In this document: piece after piece, positions 2,084 through 10,800 of the stretch
How the letters are laid out: each line of letters begins with the position of its first letter
How positions within the stretch are numbered: position 1 is the stretch's first letter
NCBI GenBank assembly: GCA_002013415.1
Contig: MAEX01000006.1
Span: 62,001 to 126,000 of the forward strand
DNA from: Mycobacterium sp. D16Q14
GTDB taxonomy: Bacteria; Actinomycetota; Actinomycetes; Mycobacteriales; Mycobacteriaceae
Reading direction: 5' to 3'
Length of the DNA: 64,000 nucleotides
The notes under the pieces: generated by a model
Told to the model about the DNA's origin: nothing
Seen by the model: the letters and a program-made list of their open reading frames with translations, nothing else
Databases searched by the model: none
Program-made: the position numbers and the translations under genes

Positions 2084-3124
2084 CTATGACGCAGGTCTAC
2101 TCATCTGGGGCGCTGCGCCGTCGCCAATCTCGTCGATCTCCAGCAGCCGCCGCGCGACGATGGCCATCTCGCGCGGATCACCGACTGTGAGCCGGACACC
2201 GCCATCGGGGTATTCCTTCGCGACAACGTCATCCGTTCCCAGAATGGACATCCAGGGCTCACTGTCGCCACGCGCGGGCAGATACACGAAGTTGGCATGG
2301 GAGTCCGGGATGTGTGCGCCCATCTGTGCGAGCCGTTCCCGGAGCTGATCACGTTCGTAGACAATGGAATCGACCCGTAGCCGCAATTCATCTTCGGCCG
2401 CGTAGGACGCCGCGACCGCCACCGCGGCCGCGCGGTTCATGCCGAACGGAAGCTGGTATCTACGAATGACACCACAGACCGCGGGAGCGGCCAGCCCGTA
2501 GCCGATGCGCAGCCCCGCCAACCCGTATGCCTTGGAGAATGTGCGCAGCACAACCAGGTTCGGGTGCGCTGCGATCAACCTCGGAATGTCCAGATGTGCA
2601 TCGGGATCCACGAATTCGATATAGGCCTCATCGAGAATGACGACACTGGACGGCGGAGCCTCACGGACAAACTCATAGACCTGATCGGCAGGTATCAGCG
2701 TTCCGGTCGGGTTATGTGGCCGGCACAGCACCACGGCGGCGGCATCGGCGTCACAGGCCGCTCCCAGTAGCTCATCCAGATCAGTCATCCCATTGTTCGC
2801 CAGCGGGATCGGCACCTGGATCAGTCCGGCAATATCGGCAAGTATCGGGTAACCGTCGAATGTCGGATGCGCAAAGACCAAAGAATCGCCCGGCTGGCAC
2901 AACGCCTGCAATACCTGCAGCGCCACCCCGGTGGCCCCGACACCCACCACCACTTCCTCCGGTGTCATACCGACACGTTCGGCGATCAATCTCGGGAGCA
3001 CCACGGGTAGAAACTCGGGGTACCGATTCACCTCCGCAATGTCATGCCTGAGCGCATCGCGCACCGATGGCAGTGGGCGATAGGGATTTTCGTTCAGCGC
3101 CAATCGGAGCGGACTGATCGTCAC
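2084..3124 (-). CDS. PLP-dependent aminotransferase, HisC-like fold type I
   Basis: A 346-residue aminotransferase resembling histidinol-phosphate aminotransferases. LALNENPYRPLPSV is the N-terminal substrate loop, LCRPHNPTGT and ILDEAYIEF are cofactor-site motifs, and TFSKAYGLAGLRIGYG carries the Schiff-base Lys. The chosen start is the GTG at 3124, overlapping the upstream stop as GTGA (3121-3124) and preceded by a GGGAGGGG ribosome binding site. A longer ORF from 3142 is possible but lies inside the upstream gene. It is the last gene of a four-gene operon, not in a histidine operon (hisG/hisE lie at 40-41 kb). A role in secondary metabolism, such as aminating a ketone, is therefore more likely than histidine synthesis. 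That role is inferred. Confidence 0.85.
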   Translation of the reverse strand: MTISPLRLALNENPYRPLPSVRDALRHDIAEVNRYPEFLPVVLPRLIAERVGMTPEEVVVGVGATGVALQVLQALCQPGDSLVFAHPTFDGYPILADIAGLIQVPIPLANNGMTDLDELLGAACDADAAAVVLCRPHNPTGTLIPADQVYEFVREAPPSSVVILDEAYIEFVDPDAHLDIPRLIAAHPNLVVLRTFSKAYGLAGLRIGYGLAAPAVCGVIRRYQLPFGMNRAAAVAVAASYAAEDELRLRVDSIVYERDQLRERLAQMGAHIPDSHANFVYLPARGDSEPWMSILGTDDVVAKEYPDGGVRLTVGDPREMAIVARRLLEIDEIGDGAAPQMSRPAS

Positions 3125-4134
3125 AGACCCCTCCCGCCCCACCGCACGGCCGCCGCAGCCGCGTAATCACCGGCATGGGCGAACCCCGCCAGCATCACGG
3201 TGTCGCCGACCTTGACCTGCCCATCGGAGATCGCCTGATCGAGCGTGTGCGGAATACCCACCCCGAACAGGTTGCCGCACTCGTCAAAGGTATCGGGGTG
3301 CTTCTCCCGGGGCAGCTGCAGGGCATCGCGCCAGTTCCGCAGGAAGATCCGGTTTGGCTGGTTGGTCACCAGGGCGTCGAGATCCGTTGACGGAACCCCG
3401 ATTCGATCACAGACCGCCAGTGCCACCTCGGGCACCATCCTGTTGCCGCGGGCCAGCACCTTGCTGATCTTGTGCTCGGTGAACGCCACCCGCCCCTGCC
3501 CAGGTCCGGCCTCCCAATACTTGCGATGAGGCGTGACCGCGTAGGTCATGTCTCCCGCGAACTCACCGAAATTCCGTGTCTCGATACCCAAAACCGGCGA
3601 GCCCCCTTCACGGGTGATCAGCGCCGCGGTGGCGCCGTCCCCCGGTATCGAGGCCTGTGCGGTGGAGCGCACTTGCTCTTGCACAAAGATCTGGCCCGCC
3701 GCGTTCTGCATATTCACGATGAGCGCCGAGCGGGCGCTCGACGAGGCCATCATCTGTTGCACAAGCTTGAGCATCAGAACGAACGACACGCAGCCGCCGT
3801 TGTGCACGTCCAGAATCCACTCCGGGCGGATTTGCAGCCGGTTCGCCACCTCGCCACCGCAGCCCACAAAGGGCAAGTCGGGCAACTGGGTGTGCGTCAG
3901 GAGAATGTCTACCTCGTCCAACACACTGTCCCCGTGCCGGGCCTTGAGACCGGCGACCGCACGCTCGGCCATATCCACCGCGGATTCGTCGGCGGCGACG
4001 TGATGCCGATGAGCCGGGCTCCGGAACATGACGTTCTCGGCCAGGTCATCGTCCTTGGCATACTGCGCGAAATAGTCAGCGCTGACCCGGTTCTCGGGAA
4101 GATAGCTGGAGATATCGAAAATGCTGACGGTCAT
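3121..4134 (-). CDS. Beta-ketoacyl-ACP synthase III-like enzyme with altered catalytic triad
   Basis: A thiolase-fold protein of 337 residues (FabH usually 310-340). The active-site Cys is visible in NGGCVSF (residue 115), and the Asn of the canonical triad in ECGNLFGVGIP (residue 288). The His of the usual HQAN motif is replaced by Asn (VTNQPNRIF, residue 258). The C-terminal GFAHAGDYAAAAAVRW matches the FabH C-terminal segment. The ATG at 4134 overlaps the upstream stop (ATGA, 4131-4134), whereas a longer ORF to 4254 lies within the upstream gene. Loss of the His suggests acyl transfer (ester or amide formation) or an unusual condensation rather than fatty-acid initiation. It is the third gene of the operon. 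Confidence 0.85.
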   Translation of the reverse strand: MTVSIFDISSYLPENRVSADYFAQYAKDDDLAENVMFRSPAHRHHVAADESAVDMAERAVAGLKARHGDSVLDEVDILLTHTQLPDLPFVGCGGEVANRLQIRPEWILDVHNGGCVSFVLMLKLVQQMMASSSARSALIVNMQNAAGQIFVQEQVRSTAQASIPGDGATAALITREGGSPVLGIETRNFGEFAGDMTYAVTPHRKYWEAGPGQGRVAFTEHKISKVLARGNRMVPEVALAVCDRIGVPSTDLDALVTNQPNRIFLRNWRDALQLPREKHPDTFDECGNLFGVGIPHTLDQAISDGQVKVGDTVMLAGFAHAGDYAAAAAVRWGGRGL

Positions 4135-4835
4135 TTCATCCACTCCGGAACGATCGGAAGCCCATGGCTGTGGCGGTATTCGGCGATGGCCTTGAGATTC
4201 AGCAGCTCCAACAGGTGGCCCGCGCCGAACATGTCCCAGAAGTCCCCTACCCACGGCTTACGTTGTGGAGGAGCGGTTTCCGGATAGGGATTCTCGTCGT
4301 AGAACGGGTGGTGGCAGTTGGTCCACAGCACGACGGAGCCCGGCTTGTTGAGCACCACCTGCGCGTCGACCACCCGCATGAGGTAGATCATCCACAGGTG
4401 ATCGCCCTGATCCCAGGCACAGTGATAATCGACGGTTCCGGATTCGGCGTTCGACTCGGTGCGGGTATAGATCAGCGTGTCGGAGCCCAAGCGGTCATGT
4501 GCGACCCACAGCCCGGCCTCATCGGTTTCCTCGAAACCGCGCAGGCTGTAGGTCCACTCCTCCAGGCAACGGGTATCGGAGAGGTATCGATGCAATTCGT
4601 CGGGTGGGCAGTCCACGTACTCCTGGACGGTGCAAAACGGGCCGAACACCTGATCATGCGGATACACCGATCGCATCATGTCCATGATGATCGGAGTCGC
4701 CTTCTCGCGCGGCGAGGTCTCGATGCGGTGCACCCCGGGCAGCGCGTCCCCGGTGCCCGCATCGGCGGCGATATCGCTAAGCGCGGGCAAGGCTTTCAGG
4801 CCAGGCGTGGATGTTTCGGTAATCGTGTCGGTCAT
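4131..4835 (-). CDS. SRPBCC/START-like (polyketide cyclase-type) protein
   Basis: A 234-residue protein with the look of an SRPBCC helix-grip domain. A VQEYVDCPPDELHRYLSD-type start of strand and helix is followed by W-rich strands (LEEWTYSLRGF, VDYHCAWDQGDHLWMIYLMRVV) and a long C-terminal helix region. Such proteins bind hydrophobic ligands, and some catalyse cyclisation or aromatisation. No catalytic residues can be assigned here. The ATG at 4835 is preceded by AAGGAG, and the gene overlaps the end of the ThDP gene by 59 bp and the next gene by 4 bp, so translational coupling is likely. Family assignment is by pattern only. Confidence 0.65.
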   Translation of the reverse strand: MTDTITETSTPGLKALPALSDIAADAGTGDALPGVHRIETSPREKATPIIMDMMRSVYPHDQVFGPFCTVQEYVDCPPDELHRYLSDTRCLEEWTYSLRGFEETDEAGLWVAHDRLGSDTLIYTRTESNAESGTVDYHCAWDQGDHLWMIYLMRVVDAQVVLNKPGSVVLWTNCHHPFYDENPYPETAPPQRKPWVGDFWDMFGAGHLLELLNLKAIAEYRHSHGLPIVPEWMK

Positions 4836-6510
4836 GTGTTTTCTCCTTAGCGATTTCAGATGACAGGAACGGAGCAAACGGGGGTATCTCGTCGGTAGAG
4901 CAAATGACCTCCACCACGGAAGGACCGCTGTGAGCCATCGCCGCATTCATGGCAGCCTCGAGATCGGCCACCGTATCGGCCGAACGGCACATCAGGCCGG
5001 GGAACATTGCCGCCAGCCCGGCCCCGATGCGCGAGGGCGAGAACCGGTTGAAGCTGTACTGCCCTCCGTAATACAGCTGTTCGCGGGTGACACACATGGC
5101 GTGCGCGTTGTTGTTGACGATGACGAAGGTGACCGGCAGTCGATGTTCGATTGCCGTGTGAATCTCCATGCCGTGCATGAAGAATGCGCCGTCGCCCGCG
5201 ACCACCACGGTGCGGCCGCCCCGCGCGAACGCACAGCCGATGCCTGCGCCGAAGGCATACCCCATGCCACCCATCCCGAGGGCAACGACGTAACGCCCCT
5301 GGCGCCGAGCGCCCAGGTAGTGCACCGCAGCGGCTCCGGTGTTGCCGGCATCGACGAAGATATCCGCCTCCGCAGGAATCACCCGGTCCAGAACGTGCAT
5401 GCCATCGTGGTACCTGACACCTTCGCCGTCATGTGCGGGCGGTTCGAGATGAGCTGGTGCGTAGATCGTTTCGTTGTCGGGGCAGTCGGCGCGCACCGGT
5501 AGGGCCGCGGCGAGCTGGGCCAGTGTGGACACCAGATCCTCGGTCTGCAGGTGCCGCGATGCGATGTGCGGTGTCGCCGAACCGATCGAGAGTACCGGTG
5601 TTGTGGAGAAGTCGACGCCCCCACGAGTCATCACGGGCATGGTGGTCCCGACGCACACACACGTCACACCGTGGTGCATTACCCTTTCCACCGCCGGGTG
5701 TCCCATTACCCCGATGACACCCAGCAGTCGCGGATCCTCGCCGTCCACAGCATCTTTGGCGTCGGGAGACACCGCGACAAAGGCGTCAAGACGATCGATG
5801 AGATCAGCCAGCTCGTCACGAGCATTGTGCCGCGCCACCTCCGGGCCGGCCACCACCAGTATCCGGCCGGGCGTATCGGCCAGATACTCGGCGAAATCGG
5901 CAAGCTGGGTCGGCACCGCCCCGGGCCGAGCATGCGGCTCCCGCATCTGCGGCAGCGACCTCAGGCGGGCCTGCTGAACATCTTTAGGTATCAAGAGCAC
6001 CGCGGGCAGACCGTCCCGGACCGCAGCCAGGGCATGGGCAAGCGCCCCGGCGATTTCTTCCGGGTGCTGCACGCGGGCGCAGTAACCGGAGATGGGACGG
6101 AAAACCGCCTCCAAGTCCATGCTTCCGGCACGCCCACTCCCGTCCTGAAACGCGCCGTTACCTTCCAACGGGCGGGGCGGCTGGCCCACGATCGCCAGGA
6201 CGGGAACTCCGCTCGCATATGATTCGGCAAGCGCGGGAACAAGATTGACGGCACCACCGCCCGACGTGGCGGCCACCACGCTCATCCTCGACGTGGCGCG
6301 CGCGTAGCCGTCGGCCATCGTGCCCGCCGAGAACTCGTGTTTGGCGACGACGGCCTCGATACCGGGTGTGTAGTGCACGGCATCGTAGAGATCCTCGATG
6401 TTGGCGCCGTCGACTCCGAAGAGGTAATCGACATCGTGGTGACGCAGCTCCAGCGCGAGCCAGTCAACCACTCGTATGTTCCCGTTCCCGGCACATATCG
6501 GCGTGGTCAT
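4777..6510 (-). CDS. Thiamine diphosphate-dependent enzyme (acetolactate synthase/decarboxylase superfamily)
   Basis: A 577-residue three-domain ThDP enzyme. The N-terminal pyrimidine domain carries the catalytic-Glu segment VVAKHEFSAGTMADGYARA, and the central domain follows. The C-terminal PP domain has the ThDP motif, beginning VVAGDGAFF and ending FVIVNNNAHAM (GDG to NNN spacing typical). It does not have the length or neighbours of the ilvB/ilvN pair. The context is a biosynthetic operon with SRPBCC, KAS III-like and aminotransferase genes, so decarboxylation of a 2-oxoacid or acyloin-type carboligation is plausible. The ATG at 6510 lies 7 bp downstream of a SigL-type -10 element, which predicts a leaderless mRNA. 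First gene of the operon. Confidence 0.88.
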   Translation of the reverse strand: MTTPICAGNGNIRVVDWLALELRHHDVDYLFGVDGANIEDLYDAVHYTPGIEAVVAKHEFSAGTMADGYARATSRMSVVAATSGGGAVNLVPALAESYASGVPVLAIVGQPPRPLEGNGAFQDGSGRAGSMDLEAVFRPISGYCARVQHPEEIAGALAHALAAVRDGLPAVLLIPKDVQQARLRSLPQMREPHARPGAVPTQLADFAEYLADTPGRILVVAGPEVARHNARDELADLIDRLDAFVAVSPDAKDAVDGEDPRLLGVIGVMGHPAVERVMHHGVTCVCVGTTMPVMTRGGVDFSTTPVLSIGSATPHIASRHLQTEDLVSTLAQLAAALPVRADCPDNETIYAPAHLEPPAHDGEGVRYHDGMHVLDRVIPAEADIFVDAGNTGAAAVHYLGARRQGRYVVALGMGGMGYAFGAGIGCAFARGGRTVVVAGDGAFFMHGMEIHTAIEHRLPVTFVIVNNNAHAMCVTREQLYYGGQYSFNRFSPSRIGAGLAAMFPGLMCRSADTVADLEAAMNAAMAHSGPSVVEVICSTDEIPPFAPFLSSEIAKEKTHDRHDYRNIHAWPESLARA

Positions 6511-6516
6511 GACTAG

Positions 6517-6544
6517 TACACGACTGTCACACGTGACCGGTTCA
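6517..6544 (-). promoter_or_regulatory. SigL-type promoter of the ThDP/KAS III/aminotransferase operon
   Basis: On the minus strand, TGAACC (6544-6539) is followed after exactly 16 bp by CGTGTA (6522-6517). This fits the reported mycobacterial SigL consensus (TGAACC, about 16 bp, CGTgtt) as I recall it. The same hexamers with the same spacing precede the sigma gene itself. Its distance to the ATG at 6510 implies transcription starting at or next to the start codon. Confidence 0.75.
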
Positions 6545-6664
6545 ACAATCCACGAGAAAAAGTGATCGAGTTATCTCAATCATGCGATGGCACAATATGA
6601 ATCGAGTTTCAGATAGTGCCAATATGGGCACGTCAAAGCATCACGAGCCTGACATATGGGGACT

Positions 6665-7411
6665 TCAGCGACGCAGTTCGAGGAACACCAGGGGTGCCGC
6701 GTCGCCGTGATTGTCGATCACCTGGACACTCTCGATCTGATCCTGAGCCATCGGAACAGTCGTCGATGTCATCATCGCGGAGCCCGGCTTGGCCGTCCAC
6801 GAACTGGCGATGATGTTCCCACCCTCGCGGGTACCGATCCGCAGCGCGTACGGCGCCGCGGAGCCGTCGGCATCATCTCCGTACGCCGGATAACTGCACC
6901 ACATTTCGATACGGGTCCCGGCACCGTCGCGGGCAATGGCCACTTGCGCACTCAGCGGCGATGGCGTCACTTGACGCATCGGCTGCCAATGCTCACCCGA
7001 GGGCAGCGAACCCGCCGCGACATTCATCGGCGCGGGCCGGTGATACCACGGTGGCGGCACCAAGGAAACCGTCAGTGCCACGGCGGCGGCCACCGCGACG
7101 GCGCCCACATACGCCAGTCGGCGCACGGCACTCTGCCGTCGCCACCGAGCCTGCAGCTTGGGCCACAGAGCCTGGACCGGGCAGCTGGTAGCCGGCTTCG
7201 CGAGTGCCGGAGGGTCTTCGAGTTCCATCTTCTCGGCGTAGCCGCGATCGACCTTGGACAGCAGGCCGGGCATGGCGGTGACCTCCGACAGAGCGCGCTG
7301 ACAGCTGGCGCAGTCAACCAGGTGCTGCTCGTACTCACGCCGTTCGGTCGACGAGAGCGCGCCCAGCACATAGGCGGCATCCCAATCGGCGTAGACATGT
7401 TCGATAGTCAT
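6665..7411 (-). CDS. rslA: Anti-sigma factor, RslA-like (membrane-anchored zinc anti-sigma)
   Basis: A 248-residue anti-sigma factor. The N-terminal zinc-binding domain has H-x3-C-x2-C (EQHLVDCASC) after WDAAYVLGALSSTERREYE, very like M. tuberculosis RslA, which binds SigL. A single transmembrane segment (about residues 115-138, LAYVGAVAVAAAVALTVSLV) is followed by an outer C-terminal domain of the RskA/RslA type. The start at 7411 overlaps the sigma gene stop (ATGA, 7408-7411). It should hold the sigma factor inactive at the membrane until a redox or envelope signal. It lies directly upstream of the biosynthetic operon. Confidence 0.85.
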   Translation of the reverse strand: MTIEHVYADWDAAYVLGALSSTERREYEQHLVDCASCQRALSEVTAMPGLLSKVDRGYAEKMELEDPPALAKPATSCPVQALWPKLQARWRRQSAVRRLAYVGAVAVAAAVALTVSLVPPPWYHRPAPMNVAAGSLPSGEHWQPMRQVTPSPLSAQVAIARDGAGTRIEMWCSYPAYGDDADGSAAPYALRIGTREGGNIIASSWTAKPGSAMMTSTTVPMAQDQIESVQVIDNHGDAAPLVFLELRR

Positions 7412-7947
7412 CGCGTGACCCCCATTTCCTGCAGCGACAACCTAAGCGCACGCACGCCGTAGTGCAGGCGTGATTTGACGGTACCTTCGGGCACCCCGAG
7501 CTCAGCGGATATGTCGGCGACTGAACTCCCGCGGTAGTACGCACGCAGGATGACGGCTCGGTGATCCGTGGACAGTGTGCGGAGCGCCTCGGCGACCAGC
7601 CACGCGTCTAGCGTCGCATCCACCTGGTCGGGGGACGCGAACTCGGGTGTCTCGGCGGTGGCTATCTCGCTACGAAAACGGGAGCTACGCGCGTTATCGC
7701 GGACCAGATTGTGAGCAACCGTGAAGAGCCAGGCGCGCGCAGATCCTTCGGTCTGGTTGACCAGTGTTGGATGCCGCCAGGCGCGTAACAGCACCTCTTG
7801 CACGATGTCCTCCGACAGCGCCGAGTCGTGGGTCAGATACATAACATAACGATGCAGCGGGCCTGCGTACTCGTCATAAAAGGCCCGCATAAGACTCGAT
7901 GAGCCATTGACGCCGATGTCTTTCGGCCCAGCCTGCCCATCCGCCAT
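7408..7947 (-). CDS. sigL: ECF RNA polymerase sigma factor, SigL-like
   Basis: A 179-residue ECF sigma factor. Region 2 is seen in MRAFYDEYAGPLHRYVMYLTHDSALSEDIVQEVLLRAWRHP, and region 4 in STDHRAVILRAYYRGSSVADISAELGVPEGTVKSRLHYGVRALR. The C-terminus (RLSLQEMGVTR) closely matches M. tuberculosis SigL. The ATG at 7947 has GGAGG about 7 bp upstream. Its own promoter region carries TGAACC-N16-CGTGTA, so it is probably autoregulated. It is paired with an RslA-like anti-sigma gene by a 4-bp overlap. Confidence 0.87.
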   Translation of the reverse strand: MADGQAGPKDIGVNGSSSLMRAFYDEYAGPLHRYVMYLTHDSALSEDIVQEVLLRAWRHPTLVNQTEGSARAWLFTVAHNLVRDNARSSRFRSEIATAETPEFASPDQVDATLDAWLVAEALRTLSTDHRAVILRAYYRGSSVADISAELGVPEGTVKSRLHYGVRALRLSLQEMGVTR

Positions 7948-7964
7948 GGAACACCTCCGACGGT

Positions 7965-7992
7965 TACACGAATCGACCGCCCGATTGGTTCA
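7965..7992 (-). promoter_or_regulatory. SigL-type autoregulated promoter of sigL-rslA
   Basis: On the minus strand, TGAACC (7992-7987) is followed after 16 bp by CGTGTA (7970-7965), about 18 bp upstream of the sigL ATG and its GGAGG site. Hexamers and spacing are identical to the element in front of the ThDP operon. Confidence 0.75.
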
Positions 7993-9981: not shown

Positions 9982-10800
9982 ATGCCTGGCAGCGCGCCGC
10001 CGAGTCCCATGCAATCCGGTGCTCTGCTCGATGACCCACAGTCCGGCTGGTTCGTGACGCATCCGCTGTTCCGGCTCGGCCTCACCTCGCCGACGGCGGC
10101 GCGGTGGGGCCTGCGACTGCTGGATCGGTGGTGCGGTGGTCTACACGCCCACATCATGGTGCGCCGCCGGGTGTCCGATGACGAGCTGCGCGCAGCGGCG
10201 GCATCCGGCATCGCCCAAGTCGTTGTTCTTGGTGCGGGATTTGATACCAGCAGCCAACACCTCGGGTCGCTGCCCGTCACCGTGTTCGAGGTCGACGCGC
10301 CCTCGACACAACGAGACAAGAGACGTCTGGTGGAGCACCACGGTGTGCCGCCGCGATGGGCGCCGTGCGATTTCGAACGGGATGATCTGACCACCAGCCT
10401 GCACACCGCGGGATTCGATTCGACGGCACCGGCGCTGGTGCTCTGGCTCGGCGTCACCTACTACCTGACGCTGCCCGCACTGGAATCGACACTGGCGCAG
10501 CTCAAAGACCTCTGTGCACCGGGAAGCCGGCTCGTGATGGATTACGGCGATCCGGACATCGTGGGCCATGACAGTCCACGACGAGACGTGCGGCGTGTGT
10601 CACGCTATGTCAGCCGGAAGGGCGAACCTTATCGCACCGGCATGACCGCTGCCCACGTCGACGAACTCCTTGCACGCCACGGCTTTCAGACGATCACCCA
10701 CCAGCGGGTACCCGGTCTCCTGGACCGCTACGACCCGACGGACAAGCGTCGGCTCGCGCGCGGTGATCGGAACGCGGTGCTGACAGCTCAGCGCGTGTGA
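9982..10800 (+). CDS. LCM-family SAM-dependent methyltransferase, apparently frameshifted at its 5' end
   Basis: This frame carries most of a PF04072-type methyltransferase: VVVLGAGFDTSSQHL (SAM loop), VFEVDAPSTQ (acidic motif) and LVLWLGVTYYLTLP. The ORF from 9982 gives an odd start (MPGSAPPSPMQSG). The expected family N-terminus is in another frame, from the ATG at 9933 (MPPRRLDQTASLTAQFNAWQRAAESHA), which stops after 33 codons. Deleting one A near 10012-10014 would join the two as AESHA-SGALLDDPQS, a normal family sequence. Either the gene is frameshifted, or the assembly has a 1-bp insertion. An in-frame ATG at 10009 could still start a shortened protein. It converges on mpa. Confidence 0.7.
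   Translation: MPGSAPPSPMQSGALLDDPQSGWFVTHPLFRLGLTSPTAARWGLRLLDRWCGGLHAHIMVRRRVSDDELRAAAASGIAQVVVLGAGFDTSSQHLGSLPVTVFEVDAPSTQRDKRRLVEHHGVPPRWAPCDFERDDLTTSLHTAGFDSTAPALVLWLGVTYYLTLPALESTLAQLKDLCAPGSRLVMDYGDPDIVGHDSPRRDVRRVSRYVSRKGEPYRTGMTAAHVDELLARHGFQTITHQRVPGLLDRYDPTDKRRLARGDRNAVLTAQRV

Follow-up and report, generated by a model that had tools for sequence, protein, structure and literature searches.

One of the closest described relatives of the locus presented here is the SigL–RslA pair of Mycobacterium tuberculosis (Mtb), which we take to be Rv0735–Rv0736 and whose sigma factor is one of the less understood in mycobacteria. The −35 consensus of SigL is TGAACC.

A −10 element of the type C-G-T-G-N-C/A has been described for Mtb SigL, in which residue 60 sets the specificity at −11 (PMC6372665). 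The reported targets include sigL itself, pks10, and Rv1138c–Rv1139c, among others (PMC6372665, PMC13002591). The zinc ligands of Mtb RslA have been named, and oxidation of its CXXC motif releases the zinc and weakens SigL binding (PMC2877774). Immediately downstream of the pair lies Rv0737, encoding a MarR regulator (PMC13002591), and thus an operon as described below is absent from that slot in Mtb. In M. smegmatis, the marR gene is Ms_1492, in a setting called a separate gene cluster (PMC13002591), and a sigma-70 factor is tabulated under MSMEG_1486 (PMC5445863). The numbering, taken as such, suggests room for four genes (MSMEG_1488–1491), the first of which is up-regulated by G-quadruplex ligands (PMC8931766).

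The second system of interest is the bacterial carbazole cassette, consisting of the aminotransferase CqsB7, the thiamine diphosphate (ThDP) enzyme CqsB3, the KASIII-like CqsB1, and the cyclase CqsB2 (PMC7466098). As carriers, this review names Streptomyces, Sorangium, and Scytonema, but not mycobacteria. In the literature searched, with most subscription papers outside its scope, we recognised no paper linking SigL with a carbazole-type operon.

The window (the whole stretch of DNA analysed, 64,000 nucleotides from Mycobacterium sp. D16Q14, grouped here with Mycobacteroides) carries a sigL-like gene, an rslA-like gene, and, downstream of the latter, an operon of four overlapping genes on the same strand (Table 1). 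We propose, with a probability of roughly 80%, that SigL transcribes both sigL–rslA and this adjacent operon, the predicted maker of a carbazole-like aromatic small molecule. The proposal starts from what was observed directly, namely the anatomy of the locus, the paired promoter motif and its conservation, and the synteny. With an autoregulated sigma factor, an anti-sigma factor, and a neighbouring target, such a locus would resemble the ECF sigma systems in which the factor acts both on its own gene and on the operon beside it. Unlike in those systems, the target would be a specialised-metabolite-like operon, predicted to be leaderless in Mycobacteroides, and the operon is often absent while the sigma factor persists.

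Table 1. Features of the locus, in window positions
Feature	Position	Strand	Basis
Predicted SigL promoter of sigL–rslA, TGAACC-N16-CGTGTA	7965..7992	-	Pattern and conservation
sigL-like ECF sigma factor gene	7408..7947	-	NF007227 above cut-off; best PDB match Mtb SigL
rslA-like anti-sigma gene, zinc motif HXXXCXXC	6665..7411	-	Domain match and alignment
Imperfect palindrome TGATTGAG-N4-CTCGATCA, part of ~50 conserved nt on the upstream side of the operon promoter	6563..6582		Alignment
Predicted SigL promoter of the operon, TGAACC-N16-CGTGTA	6517..6544	-	Pattern and conservation
ThDP-dependent enzyme, NzsH/CqsB3-like role predicted	4777..6510	-	Domain and PDB match
CqsB2/NzsI-like Bet v1-type cyclase	4131..4835	-	CqsB2 homology
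KASIII-like enzyme with Asn for the active-site His; role predicted to be CqsB1/NzsJ-like	3121..4137	-	Domain and alignment
HisC/aromatic aminotransferase-like enzyme	2084..3142	-	Domain and PDB match

The identity of the two regulators, as given in a first-pass annotation of this DNA, stood up well. The sigma factor finds Mtb SigL as its best PDB match (E 2.4e-58) and is encoded by a single copy in its own genome (E ≤ 1e-30); Mtb and Mycobacteroides SigL agree at about 58–59% over ~166 amino acids. The residue equivalent to Mtb SigL 60 is Gln in the window and Asp in Mtb, a difference that speaks against the proposal. The anti-sigma gene was again found between sigL and the operon, and its product is RslA-like (PDB match 3hug_B, E 1.9e-15). 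It keeps H5, H30, C34, and C37, the counterparts in the alignment of the four Mtb RslA zinc ligands, and the H-C-C of the zinc motif is kept in 86/86 aligned RslA hits. The zinc ligands and the type of the sigL autopromoter are alike in Mtb and in the window. Because the four ligands are kept, a redox or zinc input is the better guess, and the membrane signal that RslA was earlier proposed to sense is not supported as stated.

The same annotation had pointed to identical hexamers with identical spacing (16 nt) in front of sigL and of the operon, and both sites were recovered by reading as well as by pattern search. They fit the SigL consensus as claimed, matching the −35 TGAACC as well as the −10 CGTGN(C/A). 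At −8/−7, where the revised consensus has AG (PMC6372665), the operon promoter reads CT and the sigL promoter AC, which again speaks against SigL control. The pattern TGAACC-N15-17-CGTGT occurs twice in the window versus 0.07 expected, a number that none of 100 shuffles reached. The genome search proposed earlier with this pattern refound both sites, but its six matches (all at spacing 16, the other four within long ORFs) do not exceed the eight of the reversed control, and the genome-wide count was dropped as evidence. The pattern alone being weak at that scale, position and conservation carry the weight. The relaxed form TGAACY-N16-CGTRT gave 11 matches in the whole genome versus 5 in the control; none of the five extra sites inspected was assigned to a gene, and we claim no further regulon members.

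Could the paired motif be a coincidence? The genome-wide frequency, no higher than that of the reversed control, would allow for it, but the upstream regions of related loci say otherwise. The strict motif TGAACY-N16-CGTR precedes 51 of 64 sigL genes (0.04 expected) and 73 of 98 ThDP genes (0.11 expected), as opposed to 2/96 cyclase, 0/95 KASIII, 0/71 aminotransferase, and 0/70 rslA genes, counted over loci with at least 150 nt of upstream sequence. These 98-locus counts hold repeats and the loci are not independent species (L168 and L169 may repeat L097 and L070, and L015–L032 may overlap L044–L123). Given these controls and the conservation in Mycobacteroides, a chance origin of the pair is already very unlikely.

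That conservation was assessed in ten Mycobacteroides genomes (the window, L044–L049, L162, L163, and L165; L161, L164, and L166 duplicate L044, L045, and L047), none of which shows a change in either hexamer of either promoter. Loss of the element from close relatives that keep the operon, named at first pass as a sign against SigL control, was thus found in none of the ten. Upstream of sigL only 10 of 65 positions are invariant, and the hexamers stand out there; upstream of the operon they stand out less, with 65 of 100 positions invariant, indicating that this whole region is constrained. The palindrome listed in Table 1 has no other perfect match in the genome and one with a mismatch, its matches within the window at up to three mismatches are not above chance, and no regulator was found for it. 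A second palindrome, GTCAC-GT-GTGAC in the spacer of the operon promoter, was dropped as a candidate, being without conservation in L046, L047, and L049.

From the operon −10 to the ATG at 6510 there are 6 nt in all ten Mycobacteroides genomes, and in six further loci of 71 the ATG lies 6–7 nt past the −10. With so short a distance, the transcript is predicted to be leaderless and to start at or beside the ATG; an alternative in-frame GTG of the ThDP gene is absent from 3 of the 10 genomes. The sigL start differs from that of the operon in having a short leader carrying GGAGGT. Leaderless messengers are common in mycobacteria, with 5′-ATG mRNAs amounting to 24% in M. smegmatis (PMC6448022) and leaderless mRNAs to nearly one-quarter in a second report (PMC4633059).

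The gap between rslA and the operon is only 154 nt (6511–6664) and the genes are co-oriented, which would be compatible with an operon transcribed mainly by read-through from sigL–rslA or by another sigma factor, the second SigL-like site being secondary. The conserved ~50-nt block with the palindrome hints at another regulator, and many relatives have a marR gene beside the operon. However, the site keeps its fixed distance to the ATG in 10/10 Mycobacteroides genomes, and it is also retained where rslA and the operon lie further apart, with other genes or several kilobases in between, as in L170 and in Nocardia loci including L065. We therefore regard read-through or a different sigma factor as the main source of operon transcripts as rather improbable, and prefer direct transcription by SigL.

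Direct transcription by SigL also agrees with how the motif follows the linkage of the genes. A looser form of the motif precedes both genes in 61 of the 66 loci that contain the pair, and in 54 of them the spacing is 16 at each of the two sites. In loci of at least 8000 nt (n = 78), 55 of 60 operons linked to sigL carry the strict motif, versus 6 of 18 unlinked ones (Fisher p 1.7e-6). The five linked exceptions comprise four near-forms and L080, without any form of the motif at the operon. No motif was found at sigL in L051, L091, L107, and L123 within the stretch examined. A strict rule is further contradicted by L227 and six more loci, which carry the motif although the stretch fetched holds no sigL. 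The promoter common to sigL and the operon, as originally claimed, is hence conserved where the genes stay together. The trees of SigL and the enzymes agree (Mantel r 0.93 with the ThDP enzyme and 0.86 with the cyclase, 66 loci), which vertical descent alone would also give. A covariation between SigL residue 54 and the operon −11 position (Arg with A in 20/20, His with G in 42/45) was rejected as proof, as it tracks the Nocardia/Mycobacterium split and is not independent.

The operon was initially taken for a small-molecule pathway, a view borne out by its four enzyme types. The key member is the cyclase, which has no match in Pfam or NCBIfam but is clearly related to CqsB2 (6ipv/6ipw; E 1.9e-46, 77 of 174 aligned residues identical). 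It keeps Tyr144, Tyr172, His206, and Glu209 of CqsB2, with Asp in place of Glu105, and the five catalytic positions are invariant in 23 aligned family members (22 relatives were chosen from 120 of 1011 matches). Foldseek with an AlphaFold model likewise returned CqsB2 first (E 1.4e-14), but the model is moderate (mean pLDDT 72.7) and the rmsd is 17.9, so the identity of the cyclase rests on sequence. For the ThDP enzyme, the best PDB match is BbmA; a literature search on BbmA/CsmA found no paper. The aminotransferase is closest to 4r2n, a putative Mtb phenylalanine aminotransferase structure (E 8.6e-60), and its start, read by eye, is likelier the GTG at 3124, which overlaps the stop codon of the KASIII gene.

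In the KASIII-like enzyme, Asn replaces the active-site His (NQPN for HQPN) in 85/85 aligned hits, with the Cys and the second Asn kept. Ten further loci show Asn in nine and His in L233 only. The exchange possibly reflects changed condensation chemistry; lacking the usual His, the last carbazole steps may differ.

Taken side by side, the operon has the same four enzyme types as the cassettes for carquinostatin (CqsB1/B2/B3/B7) and neocarazostatin (NzsJ/I/H). It differs from the Streptomyces carbazole cassettes in its tie to SigL, in the exchanged Glu105 and KASIII His, and in the distance of its cyclase, ~43% identical to CqsB2 (42–49% in 18 loci, window included) versus 72% for L233, which also keeps the KASIII His. 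Furthermore, neither a prenyltransferase nor a dedicated 3-hydroxybutyryl-ACP supply (second KASIII, ACP) was seen among the ORFs scanned beside the operon; fatty-acid synthesis could provide this substrate. Judged by their sequences, the operon enzymes are a separate subfamily that is predicted to work like a carbazole cassette without being filed as one, so that a product other than carquinostatin is expected. One genome, G450, contains both the present cassette type (L224) and the carquinostatin-like one (L233), and would help to distinguish their products.

Alternatively, the operon might belong to fatty-acid or amino-acid metabolism. The highest-scoring NCBIfam models of the ThDP enzyme are acetolactate synthases (all below cut-off), the KASIII has lost its active-site His, and copies of the cassette unlinked to sigL have lipid-type neighbours (AMP-ligase and MMPL genes). 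Yet BbmA, rather than an acetolactate synthase, is the best PDB match of that same ThDP enzyme, and every enzyme type of the published cassette is present. In addition, the cyclase, a CqsB2 homologue with four of the five cited catalytic residues, is the most conserved enzyme between Mycobacteroides and other loci (~64–78% versus ~48–55% for the ThDP enzyme). On balance, a fatty-acid or amino-acid operon seems unlikely, and the carbazole-like assignment is retained.

Such operons are found beside sigL in numerous mycobacteria and Nocardia. In a GTDB genus sample, 129 of 198 genomes have the cyclase (E ≤ 1e-40) and 170 of 198 have SigL; with 149 of the 170 SigL genomes compared, both genes are listed in at least 111 genomes, and in 93 of these 111 they lie no more than 12 kb apart. 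If a specialised-metabolite operon was the ancestral neighbour target of SigL, an unrecognised aromatic small-molecule family is predicted in the 129 genomes with a cyclase. A class-wide sample yielded the cyclase (E ≤ 1e-20) in only 27 of 394 genomes and 5 of 137 genera. The ThDP gene accompanies the cyclase in all but a few loci, whereas the aminotransferase is missing from some unlinked copies.

The order secY-adk-map-sigL-rslA-ThDP-cyclase-KASIII-aminotransferase-marR occurs in 28 of 89 loci examined (the secY, adk, map, and marR domains were checked in L054). In Mycobacteroides, including the window, and in Nocardia, sigL, rslA, and the operon stand without the secY-adk-map and marR flanks within the stretch fetched, and L172 (G016) is an exception in having sigL–rslA in another setting. 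Many Mycobacterium loci end, after the operon, with the MarR-family gene at the Rv0737 position (for example, L054:10588–11103 and L170:12361–12867), which may regulate the pathway in addition to SigL.

Conversely, at least 38 genomes among those listed for the genus have sigL without a cyclase match. From 18 of 38 such genomes, and from two more with unlinked copies, 20 sigL loci were fetched, all of which keep secY-adk-map-sigL-rslA and marR without a linked intact operon. The motif is present upstream of sigL in 16 of these 20. As marR adjoins rslA in 17 of the 20 (at up to ~300 nt), the usual slot of the operon is between rslA and marR, from which it was probably lost on several occasions. 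The other three loci show a ThDP remnant (L189), part of the KASIII gene together with the aminotransferase (L191), or an interval of ~3.4 kb (L193).

ThDP-cyclase-KASIII copies away from sigL have neighbourhoods of their own, beside an AMP-binding ligase in L167–L169 (L168 and L169 also have an MMPL transporter there) and beside a cytochrome P450 in L171 and L062. The SigL motif is absent at L062 and at the counterparts of L167–L169 and L171.

Combining these observations, SigL–RslA is likely a redox-type switch with the operon as its often-lost neighbouring target. RslA, a zinc-type anti-sigma factor, would keep SigL sequestered up to its own oxidation, as has been described for the Mtb protein, and the freed SigL would drive both promoters as a feed-forward pair, yielding a predicted leaderless operon mRNA next to a sigL mRNA with a leader. 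The aminotransferase would then convert an aromatic amino acid to an arylpyruvate, the ThDP enzyme would join it to pyruvate, the KASIII-like enzyme would add an acyl group, and the CqsB2-like cyclase would close the ring. Carbazoles of the CqsB/Nzs group have been studied as protectants against oxidative damage (PMC7466098); by analogy, such a role of the putative product would fit a redox switch, although this is speculation. More tentatively still, SigL–RslA may have originated as a redox switch devoted to a carbazole-like aromatic metabolite, possibly an antioxidant, of mycobacteria and Nocardia, Mtb SigL having been orphaned by deletion of the operon between rslA and Rv0737. If the ancestral neighbour target of SigL was a specialised-metabolite operon, its puzzling regulon in species that have lost the operon becomes interpretable.

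Beyond the Actinomycetes, a Burkholderia protein (P0082) is 71–73% identical to the window cyclase among the matches listed, which suggests a transfer outside this class. In the window itself, the region lies between two LCM/TIGR00027-type methyltransferase-like genes (1181–2005 and 9982–10800).
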